From positions 1 to 10,000 of the forward strand of contig VSJD01000167.1 of the NCBI GenBank assembly GCA_008636095.1: a stretch of 10,000 bases of DNA, read 5' to 3'. This document shows positions 1 through 5,544 of the stretch, piece after piece (positions within the stretch are counted from its first letter, which is position 1; every line of letters starts with the position of its first letter). Origin of the DNA: Kiritimatiellota bacterium (GTDB lineage: Bacteria > Verrucomicrobiota > Kiritimatiellia > JAAZAB01). The position numbers and the translations under genes were made by a program. The notes beneath the pieces were generated by a model. It was not told where the DNA came from. It saw only the letters and a program-made list of their open reading frames with translations, and did not search any database.

Positions 1-1506
1 ATCCGTCGTAAAGGGATTAAAGACCGTCAAAAGCGGGACAATAAGCATGCCGGCTATGAGGTAAGGCAGTTTGACAAAGCGCCGAATCATCATTAAAAAC
101 AGCAGATACACAAACAACCCCCAGCATCCCACCACCTGGTAAAAAATAAAGAGCTGATACACTGCCAGGCGAAGATAAGGATTCTCCGGCACACTGATTA
201 TCAAGTTCCGGAAAATAAAATTGACCGGCTCCGTGGGAAGGCCCGCGTGGGGCATAATCATATCAGGGGAAATCCATGAACCAGGCTTGAAATGCCGGAT
301 GGCGGCAAACCAGGCGAAAAACACAAGAAGCAGGATGCCGGCCATGATCAAGTTTTTCCACTCTCTGACGGTCCAGCGGTTATCGCGAAGAACCCGCCCT
401 GCGTAGTCATCCAGACGAAGCAAGGGTGTTCGACGATTGCAAAAATCCGTAAACTTACGCCAAAGCATTTTTGTTGTTTCCCAAAGACTCAGCGCTAAAG
501 TCATGAAAAAAATAAACAATGCCTCCTGGGCATGAATTGCATTGGTCACAATCAATAAAACCGGCGCAATCCAAAGCGCATGCCCAAGCCACCTGTGGTG
601 CCTGCACTGAGCGAAGTCGAAGCGAGCGCTGTCGAACCACCTGTGGTGAGCATAGCCGAACCAGCGATTAGACCTCAGCCAGTCAATAATCACCGCCATG
701 GCCGCAAGAAAGAGAACATAATTAAGAATTGTGGGGGCAAATGCATAATAACGGATATAGGCAAACACATTGTTTCCCATAGTGGCGGCGGCAAACAAGG
801 AAGCAATCGCCGCCATCATCATTTTCTTGAGCGCGCTGATACGCAGGCCGGAAAAAAGAAACAGGCCGAAATAATAGAATCCTAAAAGAAAAACTGTAAC
901 ATTTACGAATGTCAGGACATGCAGAAATTCCATAATCGCCAGACCAGAAACATGGCCAAGCCAGGCATGCATAAAATACCAAGGATTAAAATACCAAGGA
1001 GAGAAGGTCTGATACAAAAGAAGGTTCTGAAAAGATAAGCCGGGCGGAAAGCAAACCAAATTAATCATATCAGATTTATGCCACTGGAACCAGGACGCAT
1101 GCGTCCACGCATCCGTTGGAATTTCAAGATAGATGCCGGCATACGCCAGATAACCGCAAATCACTCCGGCCAGGAACAAGGGGACGAGCAGGCGTGGCAG
1201 GCACAGGCGGGAATTCAAAAAACCACGGATAGAATCGGAGAAATCTTTTTGGGAAAACACAAGAGTCTTGACAACGGCCAAAACCGCCAAAATCACCCAT
1301 TCCAACAGAACACACCATTGCCAACGGGCAATCGGCTGGGCATAATATTCAAACGGCAGGAGCGTAAGAACGAGGAGGGCATAGGAGAACGCGAACGAAA
1401 GTAGAAAGCGGAATTTTTTAATCCCCAGGATTACCGTGATAAAAAATCCCGGCAGGAAAAAGAGGACGACAAACAACTCAAGGTAAATGATAAGTGAAGA
1501 AATCAT
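1..1506 (-). CDS. Polytopic inner-membrane protein, possible GT-C-like transferase (3' end outside window)
   Basis: An uninterrupted minus-strand frame runs from ATG at 1506 to base 1: 502 codons, no stop, C-terminus outside the window. The protein is strongly hydrophobic. Likely membrane segments lie near residues 5-28, 35-50, 64-84, 105-125, 193-220, 229-242, 256-275, 309-322, 329-342, 385-403, 446-472 and 481-496. After the fourth segment a loop carries PTDAWTHASWFQWH (130-143); an Asp in the first large outer loop resembles the acidic motif of GT-C glycosyltransferases, but this is only an analogy. I do not recognise the exact family. The start is preceded by GGATTAGAG, a weak ribosome binding site. 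The gene lies 148 nt after the YdcF-like gene, on the same strand, at the end of the sugar cluster, so an envelope polysaccharide role is inferred. Residues 287-306 hold an odd repeat (separate entry). The open frame and membrane nature are seen directly; the function is a guess. Confidence 0.82.
   Translation of the reverse strand, partial: MISSLIIYLELFVVLFFLPGFFITVILGIKKFRFLLSFAFSYALLVLTLLPFEYYAQPIARWQWCVLLEWVILAVLAVVKTLVFSQKDFSDSIRGFLNSRLCLPRLLVPLFLAGVICGYLAYAGIYLEIPTDAWTHASWFQWHKSDMINLVCFPPGLSFQNLLLYQTFSPWYFNPWYFMHAWLGHVSGLAIMEFLHVLTFVNVTVFLLGFYYFGLFLFSGLRISALKKMMMAAIASLFAAATMGNNVFAYIRYYAFAPTILNYVLFLAAMAVIIDWLRSNRWFGYAHHRWFDSARFDFAQCRHHRWLGHALWIAPVLLIVTNAIHAQEALFIFFMTLALSLWETTKMLWRKFTDFCNRRTPLLRLDDYAGRVLRDNRWTVREWKNLIMAGILLLVFFAWFAAIRHFKPGSWISPDMIMPHAGLPTEPVNFIFRNLIISVPENPYLRLAVYQLFIFYQVVGCWGLFVYLLFLMMIRRFVKLPYLIAGMLIVPLLTVFNPFTTD
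589..648 (-). repeat. In-frame repeat insertion flanked by 12-bp direct repeats
   Basis: CCACCTGTGGTG occurs at 589-600 and again at 637-648, exactly 48 bp (16 codons) apart. The 36 bp between them contain ACTGAGCGAAGTCGAAG and AGCGCTGTCGAA. Each 12-mer is itself almost self-complementary (CCAC..GTGG). In the membrane protein each copy encodes HHRW (residues 287-290 and 303-306), and the spacer encodes FDSARFDFAQCR, a charged stretch between two hydrophobic segments. One copy plus spacer can be removed without changing the frame, so this looks like a small repeat insertion tolerated in a loop, comparable in principle to protein-coding palindromic elements of Rickettsia. Confidence 0.6.
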
Positions 1507-2709: not shown

Positions 2710-3630
2710 TTAATTCGTGAACAGATTGCGGACAGTTGCGGCAATACTGGCCGCATCCAAACCATAGTGATCTCTAAGCCAGTCGCGACTGCCGAGTTGG
2801 GAACAGTATTCGTCGGGCACACCAATCTTGGCAAACCGTCCTGCATAGCGGTACTGCAGGAGTACTTCTACAATCGCCGTTCCTAAACCGTTAATCACGC
2901 TATGTTCTTCAGCCGACACTATTGCCTTACAGGATGAGGCTATATCAATCACGCCGGCTTCGTCAAATGGTTTAAGCGTATGGGCGGAATATAATCGGCA
3001 TGGAATACCCGCCTCGGCCAACAAGTGGACAGCCTTTGCGCAACTTGGCAGGAGAGATCCAGTTGTGATGATAGCAACTTCTCCGCGAGCATGGAGACAG
3101 CTCAATTTTCCCAGCACAACCGGCGGCTCTTCCGTATGAACACGCAGGTCATTATTACTACCGAGACGGAGATAGCACGGAGTTTGCAGGTTCAACGATT
3201 GAAACAACAAAGCTTCGCATTCCAGGGGATCGCCAGGGGAGAGAATGGTCATTCCCGGAAGAGCACGGGTGACAGCGATATCCTCGATGGCATGATGCGT
3301 CATGCCCTCCATGCCGTAGGAAAGGCCGCTGCCAACCCCTACAAGCGTGACCGGAAGACGCGAAGCACACAGGTCGGTCCGAATCTGATCCAGGGTTCGA
3401 AAAACCAGAAACGGCACCATGGAATAGCAGAAAGGGCGAATATTCCGCATAGCCATTCCAGCGGCCAGGCCGATCATGTTGGCTTCGGCGACCCCGACAT
3501 TAGTAATATGGTCAGCGTACTTGTCGAGATACGGCGTCAACACGCCAAAACCCAGGTCGGCTGTCAGCAGGTGAAGGGGATGACCTTCATCCACGAGTCG
3601 AAAGAAATTCTGGAAGAATGTCGAGCGCAT
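2710..3630 (-). CDS. Transketolase-like protein, C-terminal subunit
   Basis: The 306-residue protein carries the pyrimidine-binding and C-terminal domains of a split transketolase. The catalytic Glu that activates thiamine diphosphate is in NVGVAEANMIGLAAGMA (E49). The aromatic cofactor pocket is FCYSMVPFLVFR (67-78). GMEGMTHHAIEDIAV (106-120) and LPGMTILSPGDPLE (124-137) are typical of the family. From about residue 180, the strand VAIITTGSLLP starts the C-terminal domain, which closes with a GLGTAIVEVL helix. With the preceding gene it should form one active enzyme moving a two-carbon ketol unit between sugars. Length (about 300) is normal for the split form. The start lies six nt after the upstream stop with no clear ribosome binding site, so translational coupling is likely. 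In a polysaccharide cluster such pairs are thought to serve unusual or branched sugars; the substrate is unknown. Confidence 0.9.
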   Translation of the reverse strand: MRSTFFQNFFRLVDEGHPLHLLTADLGFGVLTPYLDKYADHITNVGVAEANMIGLAAGMAMRNIRPFCYSMVPFLVFRTLDQIRTDLCASRLPVTLVGVGSGLSYGMEGMTHHAIEDIAVTRALPGMTILSPGDPLECEALLFQSLNLQTPCYLRLGSNNDLRVHTEEPPVVLGKLSCLHARGEVAIITTGSLLPSCAKAVHLLAEAGIPCRLYSAHTLKPFDEAGVIDIASSCKAIVSAEEHSVINGLGTAIVEVLLQYRYAGRFAKIGVPDEYCSQLGSRDWLRDHYGLDAASIAATVRNLFTN

Positions 3631-3636
3631 GAACGA

Positions 3637-4461
3637 TTATTTTTTCGGCGATCCCGAAAGCTCCTGTAAGGCAGCATGAAATTCATTCCCCTTCGGACAG
3701 CGATAGTGCCACAACAACTGGTTTTCCATGAAACTAACGCCTTTGCCCTTGATAGTATGAGCAATAACGGCCAAAGGCTTGGGGGACGTGCCGAGACGGG
3801 AGTAGGTCTCCCACAAGGCACGGTGATCATGACCGTCCACTTCGACGACCTCCCATCCGAACGATTGCCAGCGGACCGCATGATCGGTCGGCAACAGGAT
3901 GTCCTTGGTAAAGCCCATGGCCTGCATCTTGTTGGCATCCAATGTCATGCATATCTGATTAAGCTTGTGATGCGCTGCAAACAGGGCGGCTTCCCACACG
4001 GAGCCTTCATTGGTTTCACCGTCCGACTGAACAACAAAAACACGCGCGGCGCTCTTCTGCTTATGGGCGGCGAAAGCTAATCCCACGGCAATGGGAAGGC
4101 CATGGCCCAGAGACCCCATATTGGCTTCCAGACCGATGGCCGGTTCAAAATGCGGATGATGTCCAAGGTGCGTGCCGTTACGGGCATACGTTTCAAATAC
4201 ATTTTTGGGTATGATTCCCTTTCGATACAGGACCGAATACAATGCTGCACACGCATGCCCCTTGCTCAGGAGGAGCCGATCCCGTTCAGGGTCTATGGGT
4301 TGGCCTTGGAGAATACCCGAATATAGCACTGCCAGGATATCGGCCACGGAAAAGGCCGAACCCACATGGCCGGTCCCGGTCTGTTCGCACATGTTCAGGA
4401 CATCCATGCGGATAGTTTTGGAAAATTGAACGAGATCTGAAATATCAGGCATGTTTGTCAT
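3637..4461 (-). CDS. Transketolase-like protein, N-terminal subunit
   Basis: The 274-residue protein is the thiamine-diphosphate (pyrophosphate-binding) half of a split transketolase. Visible motifs: GHVGSAFSVADILAVLY (31-47), SKGHACAALY (66-75), GSLGHGLPIAVGLAFA (116-131) and the Mg/ThDP motif SDGETNEGSVWEA (146-158) followed by DANKMQ (175-180). The first residue of the usual GDGE is Ser, which I believe is common in split transketolases. KGKGVSFMENQLLWHY (238-253) carries the substrate-side His. It pairs with the next gene, six nt downstream. AAGGTGAT lies directly before ATG 4461. A second ATG at 4452 (residue 4) has a longer spacing and could be used instead. The ribosome binding site lies partly in the terminal repeat of the MITE-like element upstream, so expression may have changed when that element arrived. 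Confidence 0.9.
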   Translation of the reverse strand: MTNMPDISDLVQFSKTIRMDVLNMCEQTGTGHVGSAFSVADILAVLYSGILQGQPIDPERDRLLLSKGHACAALYSVLYRKGIIPKNVFETYARNGTHLGHHPHFEPAIGLEANMGSLGHGLPIAVGLAFAAHKQKSAARVFVVQSDGETNEGSVWEAALFAAHHKLNQICMTLDANKMQAMGFTKDILLPTDHAVRWQSFGWEVVEVDGHDHRALWETYSRLGTSPKPLAVIAHTIKGKGVSFMENQLLWHYRCPKGNEFHAALQELSGSPKK

Positions 4462-4469
4462 ATCACCTT
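4462..4469 (-). promoter_or_regulatory. Ribosome binding site donated by element terminal repeat
   Basis: AAGGTGAT on the minus strand matches the 16S-complementary tail (AAGGAGGTGAT type) and abuts ATG 4461. Its first five bases (AAGGT, 4469-4465) are the outermost bases of the 14-bp terminal inverted repeat of the 4465-4789 element. Confidence 0.55.
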
Positions 4470-4789
4470 AATTTTGCACGAACATCAGCGTTTGGTGATT
4501 GTTTTTCAACCTGCCCGCAGTCGCTGCGCTCCAGCGCTGTAGGCGGGTAGCAACGGCGTGCAAACTATTTTTTGCACCACTTTTTCTTTTTCAGCCGGAG
4601 GCTGATCCGCCCAGGCGGAAACCCAACGGGTTATGAAGGTATCCTGCAAAAACGCTGATGTTCGTCGCAAAAGACGGTCGCGTAATTTTGGCACATCTAC
4701 TTTGTTGCGCGGGGTTTGCAGTATGCTTATACAGCGGCACCCCGCGCGCCGCGCATCTGCGCCAAACTGACGCGATGCAAAATTAAGGT
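4465..4789. mobile_element. MITE-like element, 325 bp, with nested inverted repeats
   Basis: ACCTTAATTTTGCA (4465-4478) and TGCAAAATTAAGGT (4776-4789) form a perfect 14-bp terminal inverted repeat. Directly inside, ACGAACATCAGCGTTT (4478-4493) has a perfect 16-bp complement at 4650-4665. The left arm is therefore continuous, while its right partner is split by a 110-bp block (4666-4775). That block has its own stems: GCGTAATTTTGGC (4680-4692) against GCCAAACTGACGC (4761-4773), 11 of 13 pairs, enclosing a GC-rich hairpin. The left interior (4500-4640) is a row of small hairpins: GTGCAAA/TTTGCAC (4558-4577), CAGCC/GGCTG (4592-4604), TCCGCC/GGCGGA (4606-4619) and AACCC/GGGTT (4620-4632). No credible protein is encoded. 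The element fills all but 23 nt of the gap between two operon genes. No target-site duplication is evident. It is probably a non-autonomous element or a structured repeat. Confidence 0.6.
4707..4747. repeat. GC-rich hairpin inside the element
   Basis: GCGCGGGGT (4707-4715) pairs perfectly with ACCCCGCGC (4739-4747). The 23-nt loop includes GTATGCTTATAC, itself partly self-complementary. The hairpin sits at the tip of the longer imperfect stem 4680-4773. Such hairpins resemble REP-like or IS200/IS605-type end structures, but no transposase is present. Confidence 0.65.
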
Positions 4790-4809
4790 AGCAGCAATGC
4801 GTTTTTGGC

Positions 4810-5544
4810 TTATTCCTTTATTGCATAACTGATATATGGATCCCACTCCAGACGGCGCAGGCAGAGCCCGGATATCTTAATAGAATCCAACAAAGCCTGC
4901 GTTTCACCAGGCCACATGGGATTGTCCAACTCGTCAAAGGCAATGATGGCCCCCTTTGGCATTAAAGGGAAGAAATGTTTGATCGCGACTTTCGTTGGTT
5001 TATACAGATCTAAATCAAGGAAGAGCAGGCTCACTACAAGATGCGGGGCTGACTTAATGAATTCAGGAATGGTCTTGGTAACATCGCCCTTTATTAGATG
5101 AATCTTATCGATGTGGCCCAGAAAACGATCCTTGTCATATTCCGCGATTAGCGCCTTCAGTTCTTCGTAAGAATCAGCGGCCAGGGCGCCTGTTTTAGGC
5201 ATGGCCACCCGGTTATGATCCTTGTGGGAATACGTAGGGAACCCGGCGAAGGAGTCAAAGCCATAGATGCGCCTGGTGAGGTTTTCCGGCTCAAGCATAG
5301 CACTGAGCTTGGCCCAGGACATGAGACCAAAGCCTTTGAAGACTCCACATTCCACGATCGAGCCCTTGACAGGCAGAGCCAGTTTAAAAATCTCATACAG
5401 TGCCAGAAAGCGTTTGAGGTGCTGTCGTCGCACATATTTTGTAAAATTTTCCAGTTTAATCTCAATCGGGTCTATGCACCCGGAAAATATCCGGGCGATA
5501 TTGGATCCCACCTGTTGCTCTGCTTCAGTTCTAAACTTCCTCAT
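4810..5544 (-). CDS. TylF/MycF-type O-methyltransferase
   Basis: The 244-residue protein matches the macrocin-O-methyltransferase (TylF) family of SAM-dependent, metal-using sugar methyltransferases. Motifs in order: SAM-binding VECGVFKGFG (64-73), YGFDSFAGFP (94-103), the GDV turn (153-155) in a helix-strand region, LFLDLDLYKPT (174-184) with the acidic residues expected to bind metal, and AIIAFDELDNP (199-209). Length (about 240-260) is normal. It likely O-methylates a hydroxyl of a sugar, either on the nucleotide sugar or on the growing glycan. The start lies two nt after the reductase stop (TAG CC ATG), so translation is probably coupled. It is the last gene before the MITE-like element. 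Family assignment is firm; the substrate is unknown. Confidence 0.88.
   Translation of the reverse strand: MRKFRTEAEQQVGSNIARIFSGCIDPIEIKLENFTKYVRRQHLKRFLALYEIFKLALPVKGSIVECGVFKGFGLMSWAKLSAMLEPENLTRRIYGFDSFAGFPTYSHKDHNRVAMPKTGALAADSYEELKALIAEYDKDRFLGHIDKIHLIKGDVTKTIPEFIKSAPHLVVSLLFLDLDLYKPTKVAIKHFFPLMPKGAIIAFDELDNPMWPGETQALLDSIKISGLCLRRLEWDPYISYAIKE

Follow-up and report, generated by a model that had tools for sequence, protein, structure and literature searches.

The 325-bp sequence that separates a TylF-type methyltransferase gene from a transketolase gene in the window, the 10,000-nucleotide stretch of DNA analyzed here, is a MITE, a non-autonomous and non-coding DNA transposon that recurs within one bacterial family of Kiritimatiellota type. 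On balance, we favor the reading that this MITE was inserted beside the transketolase start, where it supplies a Shine-Dalgarno-like AAGG. The features of the element and of the adjoining genes, with the strand where one applies, are as follows.

2710–3630, minus strand: transketolase C-terminal subunit (Pfam PF02779 and PF02780)
3637–4461, minus strand: transketolase N-terminal subunit, the gene that adjoins the left end of the element (Pfam PF00456)
4462–4464: ATC, presumed to be the left copy of an imperfect 3-bp target duplication (AGC on the right)
4465–4789: MITE copy of 325 bp, comprising a core of about 258 bp and two nested repeats, with dispersed copies in its own genome and in relatives
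4465–4478, plus strand: left terminal inverted repeat; the left-type end continues as CGAACATCAGCGTT
4466–4469, minus strand: outermost AAGG of the terminal repeat, a candidate Shine-Dalgarno sequence ahead of the ATG at 4461–4459
4479–4664: left hairpin of the cloverleaf, with an outer stem of 4479–4493 paired to 4650–4664 (folding and covariation)
4510–4547: nested palindromic repeat A, 38 bp, without counterpart in the uninterrupted copies of a 20-copy alignment; related stretches occur elsewhere
4591–4619: nested palindromic repeat B, 29 bp, without counterpart in the uninterrupted copies; related stretches occur in genome G019, outside the family
4678–4775: right long hairpin of the cloverleaf (folding and covariation)
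4776–4789, minus strand: right terminal inverted repeat; inward from this right-type end, the minus strand continues as TCGCGTCAGTTTGGC
4790–4792: AGC, presumed to be the right copy of the 3-bp target duplication
4810–5544, minus strand: TylF-type methyltransferase, encoded upstream of the element (Pfam PF05711)

The element lies within a run of minus-strand genes that encode an epimerase, a glycosyltransferase, a methyltransferase, a sugar transferase, an aldo/keto reductase, and the TylF-type methyltransferase, followed by the element itself and the two transketolase subunits. The gap between the TylF gene and the gene for the transketolase N-terminal subunit is 348 nt, of which the element accounts for 325 and other sequence for 23. 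A preliminary description of this DNA had stated that the element fills a junction of otherwise 23 nt in an operon whose upstream junctions are short or overlapping, and both statements agree with our measurements: using the longest open reading frames, the junctions upstream of the element were determined to be 2 and 7 nt, or overlaps of 4, 20, and 29 nt.

The perfect 14-bp terminal inverted repeats reported in that description were verified at 4465–4478 and 4776–4789, and no open reading frame of at least 80 amino acids was found inside 4465–4789. Complete copies of the element are small (255–370 bp), and those that are uninterrupted measure 255–259 bp. In the 20-copy alignment, other copies hold other small inserts at further sites; several short repeat families have landed in the MITE, at about six sites in all. 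The core pattern of repeat A was found, with up to two mismatches, at six places among six genomes, all of them in the source genome. A stretch resembling repeat A was also noted by eye just upstream of the orthologous transketolase gene of genome G006 (L177, about 3828–3859), at a locus free of the MITE.

Copies with the same ends are present in the source genome. With the full 325-bp query, 52 matches were reported there, many of them partial, and the 14-bp end ACCTTAATTTTGCA was found with at most one mismatch at 12 + 12 places (24 in all), against 0 + 0 for the reversed control. The 325-base sequence matched each of the nine family relatives at least once. The element ends are established in the source genome and in eight of these nine relatives; in the ninth, G006, all ten matches are to nested repeat A only, with one additional lone match to the 14-bp pattern and none to the longer end patterns. 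Lone 14-bp matches in G001, G004, G005, G006, G010, and G012 are weak because the reversed control also matches in these genomes (one or two matches each at one mismatch). The longer end patterns were located at 40 (left) and 24 (right) places; either pattern is represented in seven of the ten family genomes, and the controls gave zero. Outside the family, 3 of 48 genomes of the same class were matched, by internal segments only: G019 (repeat B), G027 (repeat A), and G052 (internal segments at about 227–299). The exact 21-base left-end pattern was found in ten stretches of a collection of named genomes, in metagenome-assembled genomes labeled Kiritimatiellae bacterium or Verrucomicrobia bacterium. 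There was no match to the element in plasmids, and a single exact left-end pattern of 21 bases was absent from viral contigs. Solo left ends of about 30–50 bp, with none of the remaining MITE, were observed in short gaps between open reading frames (L155 3299, L115 2971, L112 2621, and similar sites); these are possibly shorter derivatives.

When complete copies were defined as inverted ends paired 240–400 bp apart, 22 were obtained, and the loss of one flank at a contig end left 21 for the analysis of target duplications. An exact 3-bp duplication flanks 11 of the 21 copies, for which the chance probability is about 4e-15, and 18 of the 21 have at most one flank mismatch, against an expectation of 16%. 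The copy in front of the NMT1 gene (G003:C24) has a left end too diverged for inclusion among the 22 pairs; its duplication was found separately to be exact. The duplicated triplets are varied (ACC, ATA, AAT, CTT, AGG, CAT, CGT, GAT, and ATT), with no obvious common motif. The flanks of the window copy, ATC and AGC, differ by one mismatch, and because of this imperfect duplication the element and its present flanks may not be the original pair. The same imperfection, together with the two palindromic repeats nested inside, would fit a mosaic of REP-like palindromes assembled by chance or rearrangement and never transposed as a unit. We regard such an origin as having almost no probability, since it is already contradicted by the existence of complete copies, which share the same ends, a similar length, and the duplication across several genera.

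The orthologous junction could be inspected from the transketolase side in G006, which belongs to another genus. The transketolase genes of G006 are 78% identical in DNA sequence up to base 4465, the first base of the element, and no further; no element end was found in that contig. The sequence upstream of transketolase differs in G006, and the TylF query found no match in this genome. Of the 192 remaining genomes in the class sample, 27 match TylF, with a best identity of 41%; because TylF thus has no close ortholog in the sample, the putative empty site is seen from the transketolase flank alone. The empty locus of G006 is also less telling than one in a copy-rich genome would be, because G006 bears almost no trace of the element. 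The multiple copies, the 3-bp target duplications, and the absence from the orthologous transketolase locus bear out the MITE-like character first proposed. The two findings that would have spoken against it, an absence of other copies and a leader conserved at the same site everywhere, did not occur.

No autonomous partner was identified among the loci searched. None of the 22 PF01609 loci in the ten genomes has an end within three mismatches of the 14-bp repeat. Derivation from IS982 had been considered for the AC ends of the element, which we take to be IS982-like, and gained no support: PF13612 is found in none of the ten family genomes and in 4 of the 193 class genomes. The genomes are incomplete and the search covered PF01609 and PF13612, and thus an autonomous partner may exist unseen.

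Two copies in the source genome enclose genes. At L054 882–2348 (G000:C229:11381–12847), a right-type and a left-type end enclose a gene for a 419-residue GNAT_C/NAT_N acyltransferase in place of the MITE core, and the copy has an exact 3-bp duplication, GGC. Other matches to this acyltransferase in the ten family genomes are 31–49% identical. Either capture by the element or later replacement could account for the arrangement, and the two are indistinguishable. At L013 1367–2491 (G000:C212), a diverged MITE copy with flanks ATG/ATG is interrupted by a gene for a 250-residue SAM methyltransferase. Mobile insertion cassettes are gene-carrying non-autonomous elements, and these two copies resemble them in having genes between their ends; here the joint movement of gene and ends is putative.

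At its left end, the element reads on the minus strand as AAGGTGAT-ATG, that is, AAGG-T-GAT-ATG of transketolase, in agreement with the original claim that AAGGT stands directly ahead of the ATG at 4461. This AAGG lies at a plausible distance from a genuine gene start, as the motif does at further genes, and is a candidate ribosome-binding site. It is the only obvious ribosome-binding sequence there; when the leader was modeled with the element removed, AAGG was absent from the 25 nt before ATG 4461. The claim that translation signals are carried at both ends held, as a matter of sequence, for the left end, where AAGG precedes the transketolase ATG, and failed for the right end, where the ATG at 4797 on the plus strand opens just 11 codons (by eye) and no open reading frame of at least 80 amino acids, and was rejected as a gene start. 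In the reading that we favor, the MITE would have been inserted next to the transketolase start codon, and the outward-facing AAGGT at each end would have placed a Shine-Dalgarno-like motif 4 nt ahead of ATG 4461 in place of the prior leader. Such ends may allow the element to settle in tight operon junctions and survive. Ribosomes would then use the AAGG, and expression of the distal genes would shift; both of these steps are putative.

The position of an element end just before the next gene, pointed out in the preliminary description, recurs at other genes. From nine of the ten family genomes, 87 ends were gathered and the gene starts lying outward of them were examined. An open reading frame of at least 80 amino acids starts 0–31 nt outside 34 of these ends, of which 16 were counted, 4 have ambiguous starts, and 14 have no Pfam match. 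The counted set consists of 16 different genes, each with a Pfam match and a clear start within 32 nt of the end. Ten start at 0–7 nt, one at 8–19 nt, and five at 20–31 nt; for the first interval, 4 would be expected under a uniform spread (P = 0.0016). The genes, by distance from the element end, are listed below, and both end types are represented among the ten nearest.

0 nt: atpC
0 nt: PdhB-like protein
3 nt: transketolase
3 nt: 6-O-methylguanine methyltransferase-type protein
3 nt: NMT1 substrate-binding protein
4 nt: pilin-like protein (short N_methyl motif alone)
5 nt: BPD_transp_2 permease
5 nt: HAD hydrolase
6 nt: metallo-hydrolase
6 nt: BNR-repeat protein
11 nt: thiC
21–30 nt: MlaE, cupin, SpoU, GFO/IDH, and DUF4838, some with their own visible GGAG-type motif

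The rows left out for ambiguous starts are Sua5 (G002:C131), SNase (G004:C6), AICARFT (G004:C20), and a FabA-like protein (G002:C126). Those left out for want of a Pfam match at 1e-5 are G000:C269, G001:C80, G004:C50, G000:C173, G003:C31, G009:C126, G004:C86, G004:C12, and G002:C212, as well as G000:C71, G000:C76 (both ends), G002:C197, and G003:C50. Four of the five open reading frames in this last group lie at 10–16 nt; should they be genuine, the gap at 8–19 nt would be less marked, but a longer open reading frame lies opposite them on the other strand. An additional open reading frame of 71 residues without a Pfam match starts at 24 nt in G000:C205. When this one and the Pfam-less rows G000:C173, G004:C86, G004:C12, and G002:C212 were added, 11 of 21 starts fell within 0–7 nt (P = 0.006), and when three starts were moved to alternative downstream codons, 8 of 16 did so (P = 0.027). 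As a control, the distances of nested repeats A and B to gene starts were collected, but with six copies passing the filter and three sides having a long open reading frame, the sample was too small.

The clustering of starts fits the survival of insertions that restore a motif or spare the native one; it fits a target preference equally well. The near-start peak would then come from the choice of target by the transposase (for example, AT-rich or start-region DNA) and not from survival aided by AAGGT. Two of the ten near-start genes, atpC and the PdhB-like gene, abut the element at zero distance from the ATG, a spacing too small for the normal motif distance, which would accord with such a choice. 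So would the state of the motif: AGG survives undamaged in 7 of the 10 ends near a start versus 57 of 71 other ends, and therefore no extra preservation, or visible selection, is evident beside genes. The varied duplicated triplets argue against a targeting explanation, which we consider unlikely.

Folded as RNA, the window element has a predicted free energy of −149 kcal/mol (z −8.96). Eleven uninterrupted copies from G000, G002, G003, G004, G007, and G009 share 66 common pairs in a cloverleaf-like fold, in which the inverted repeats form the terminal stem and there are three hairpins: one on the left, a small one in the middle, and a long one on the right. Of the cells in their alignment, 93.7% pair. 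Changes on both sides were found for 23 pairs and 63 cells, compared with shuffle means of 13.2 and 20.8, and none of 500 shuffles was as high; the structure was derived from the same 11 sequences, and the shuffles ignore relatedness. Control versions in which the partner was slid reached at most 9 pairs and 11 cells with two-sided changes. Additional pair types stand out less, at 42 against 37.8 in the shuffles, with 22 of 500 as high. Covariation is seen inside the hairpins and in the terminal repeat alike. Such covariation could arise without selection on the RNA if one arm were corrected by the other during replication. A known RNA family was rejected, as no covariance model in Rfam matched the element.

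A conserved fold with compensatory changes is what would be expected of a structured leader RNA of transketolase genes, such as a riboswitch, that is not mobile. We find this explanation very improbable. It is already contradicted by the dispersal of the copies, which stand beside unrelated genes and carry 3-bp duplications and inverted ends, and it must also contend with the orthologous G006 genes, which lack the element, and with the Rfam result.

The fold bears directly on the candidate ribosome-binding site. In the modeled window transcript, AAGG is paired with the opposite terminal repeat, and its predicted unpaired probability is 0.00; when 4776–4812 was held open in the model, the two A residues were freed and the two G residues were still paired. 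The motif is thus predicted not to be accessible in the transcript, and its use would require unfolding or processing of the terminal stem, for which RNase III cleavage may be one route. A scan of the element region for signals gave one terminator-like site, on the plus strand, against 0.8 expected. No promoter-like consensus match was found in 4400–4900, and a promoter inside the element was accordingly rejected.

The stability of the fold, the predicted burial of AAGG in the terminal stem, and the lack of a promoter-like match are also compatible with a MITE that is real but whose end is no working ribosome-binding site. The fold and the 348-nt untranslated spacer would then uncouple transketolase from TylF and lower its expression, and the insertion would be tolerated or slightly harmful. 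Repeated landing 0–7 nt from gene starts is unexpected if insertions only harm, because harmful insertions would be purged; we hold this account to be unlikely.

An extension of the favored reading, in which the MITE supplies the AAGG, is self-repair. With a Shine-Dalgarno sequence at both ends, the element would mend the leader whenever an insertion splits the native site from its start, and could thereby colonize tight junctions, among them TylF-transketolase, atpD-atpC, a dehydrogenase-hydrolase pair, and others; the sealed cloverleaf would make translation conditional on melting or cleavage. We offer this proposal as tentative.

Prokaryotic MITEs are described as small, non-coding, and mainly intergenic, with terminal inverted repeats, direct repeats, and highly paired transcripts, and all of these traits are seen or, for the transcript, predicted in the present element (PMC10969869). 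Nested elements are described there among pneumococcal repeats, and the window MITE likewise holds nested repeats. Section 4.1 of the same 2024 review lists six kinds of effect on expression (promoters, IHF sites, RNase cleavage, inactivation, sRNAs, and possible riboswitches or terminators), and a Shine-Dalgarno sequence from a terminal repeat is not in that list. The Correia elements of Neisseria resemble the present MITE by description: both lie immediately upstream of genes, and Correia transcripts are processed at the terminal repeats. The reported effects differ, those given for Correia elements in section 4.1 of PMC10969869 being promoters, binding of IHF, and cutting of the terminal repeats by RNase III. 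MITEAba12 of Acinetobacter is likewise non-autonomous with defined ends and duplications, and outward promoter-like signals have been proposed for it (PMC6382973). It differs in its 9-bp duplications, its length of 111–114 bp, and its partner, ISAba12; for the present MITE the duplication is 3 bp, the length is about 257 bp, and no partner was found. A bacterial MITE with a Shine-Dalgarno sequence from its terminal repeat was not found among the matches listed in a literature search that covered few subscription journals. We conclude that the element is a new family of a known type, the MITE, and that leader self-repair is its possibly novel part.

Should the element end prove to act as a ribosome-binding site, it would show how a parasitic element can take up residence in operons while the downstream genes escape silencing, and the insertions at no fewer than ten genes would offer a natural series for measuring the effect. 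The clear covarying fold bears, in addition, on why MITE structures are conserved.

Several further observations were made. At L006 1455 and L126 933, the upstream gene, identified from Pfam as an ADH-type dehydrogenase (L006) and the ATP synthase beta subunit (L126), has a stop codon whose final base doubles as the outermost base of the element. Because the stop codon overlaps one end and the next gene begins 6 and 0 nt, respectively, past the other, the element occupies the whole junction in both cases. Elsewhere in the window, a repeated CCACCTGTGGTG-type stretch at about 590–660 lies inside the open reading frame of a large membrane protein (1–1506, minus strand); it is translated as HHRWFDSARFDFAQCRHHRW and resembles, by eye, a dispersed repeat within the gene. 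A perfect palindrome, ACTCCGTCCGTCAGCTGATGGACGGAGT, was also noticed by eye at about 2530–2557, in the gap after the gene for the transketolase C-terminal subunit.
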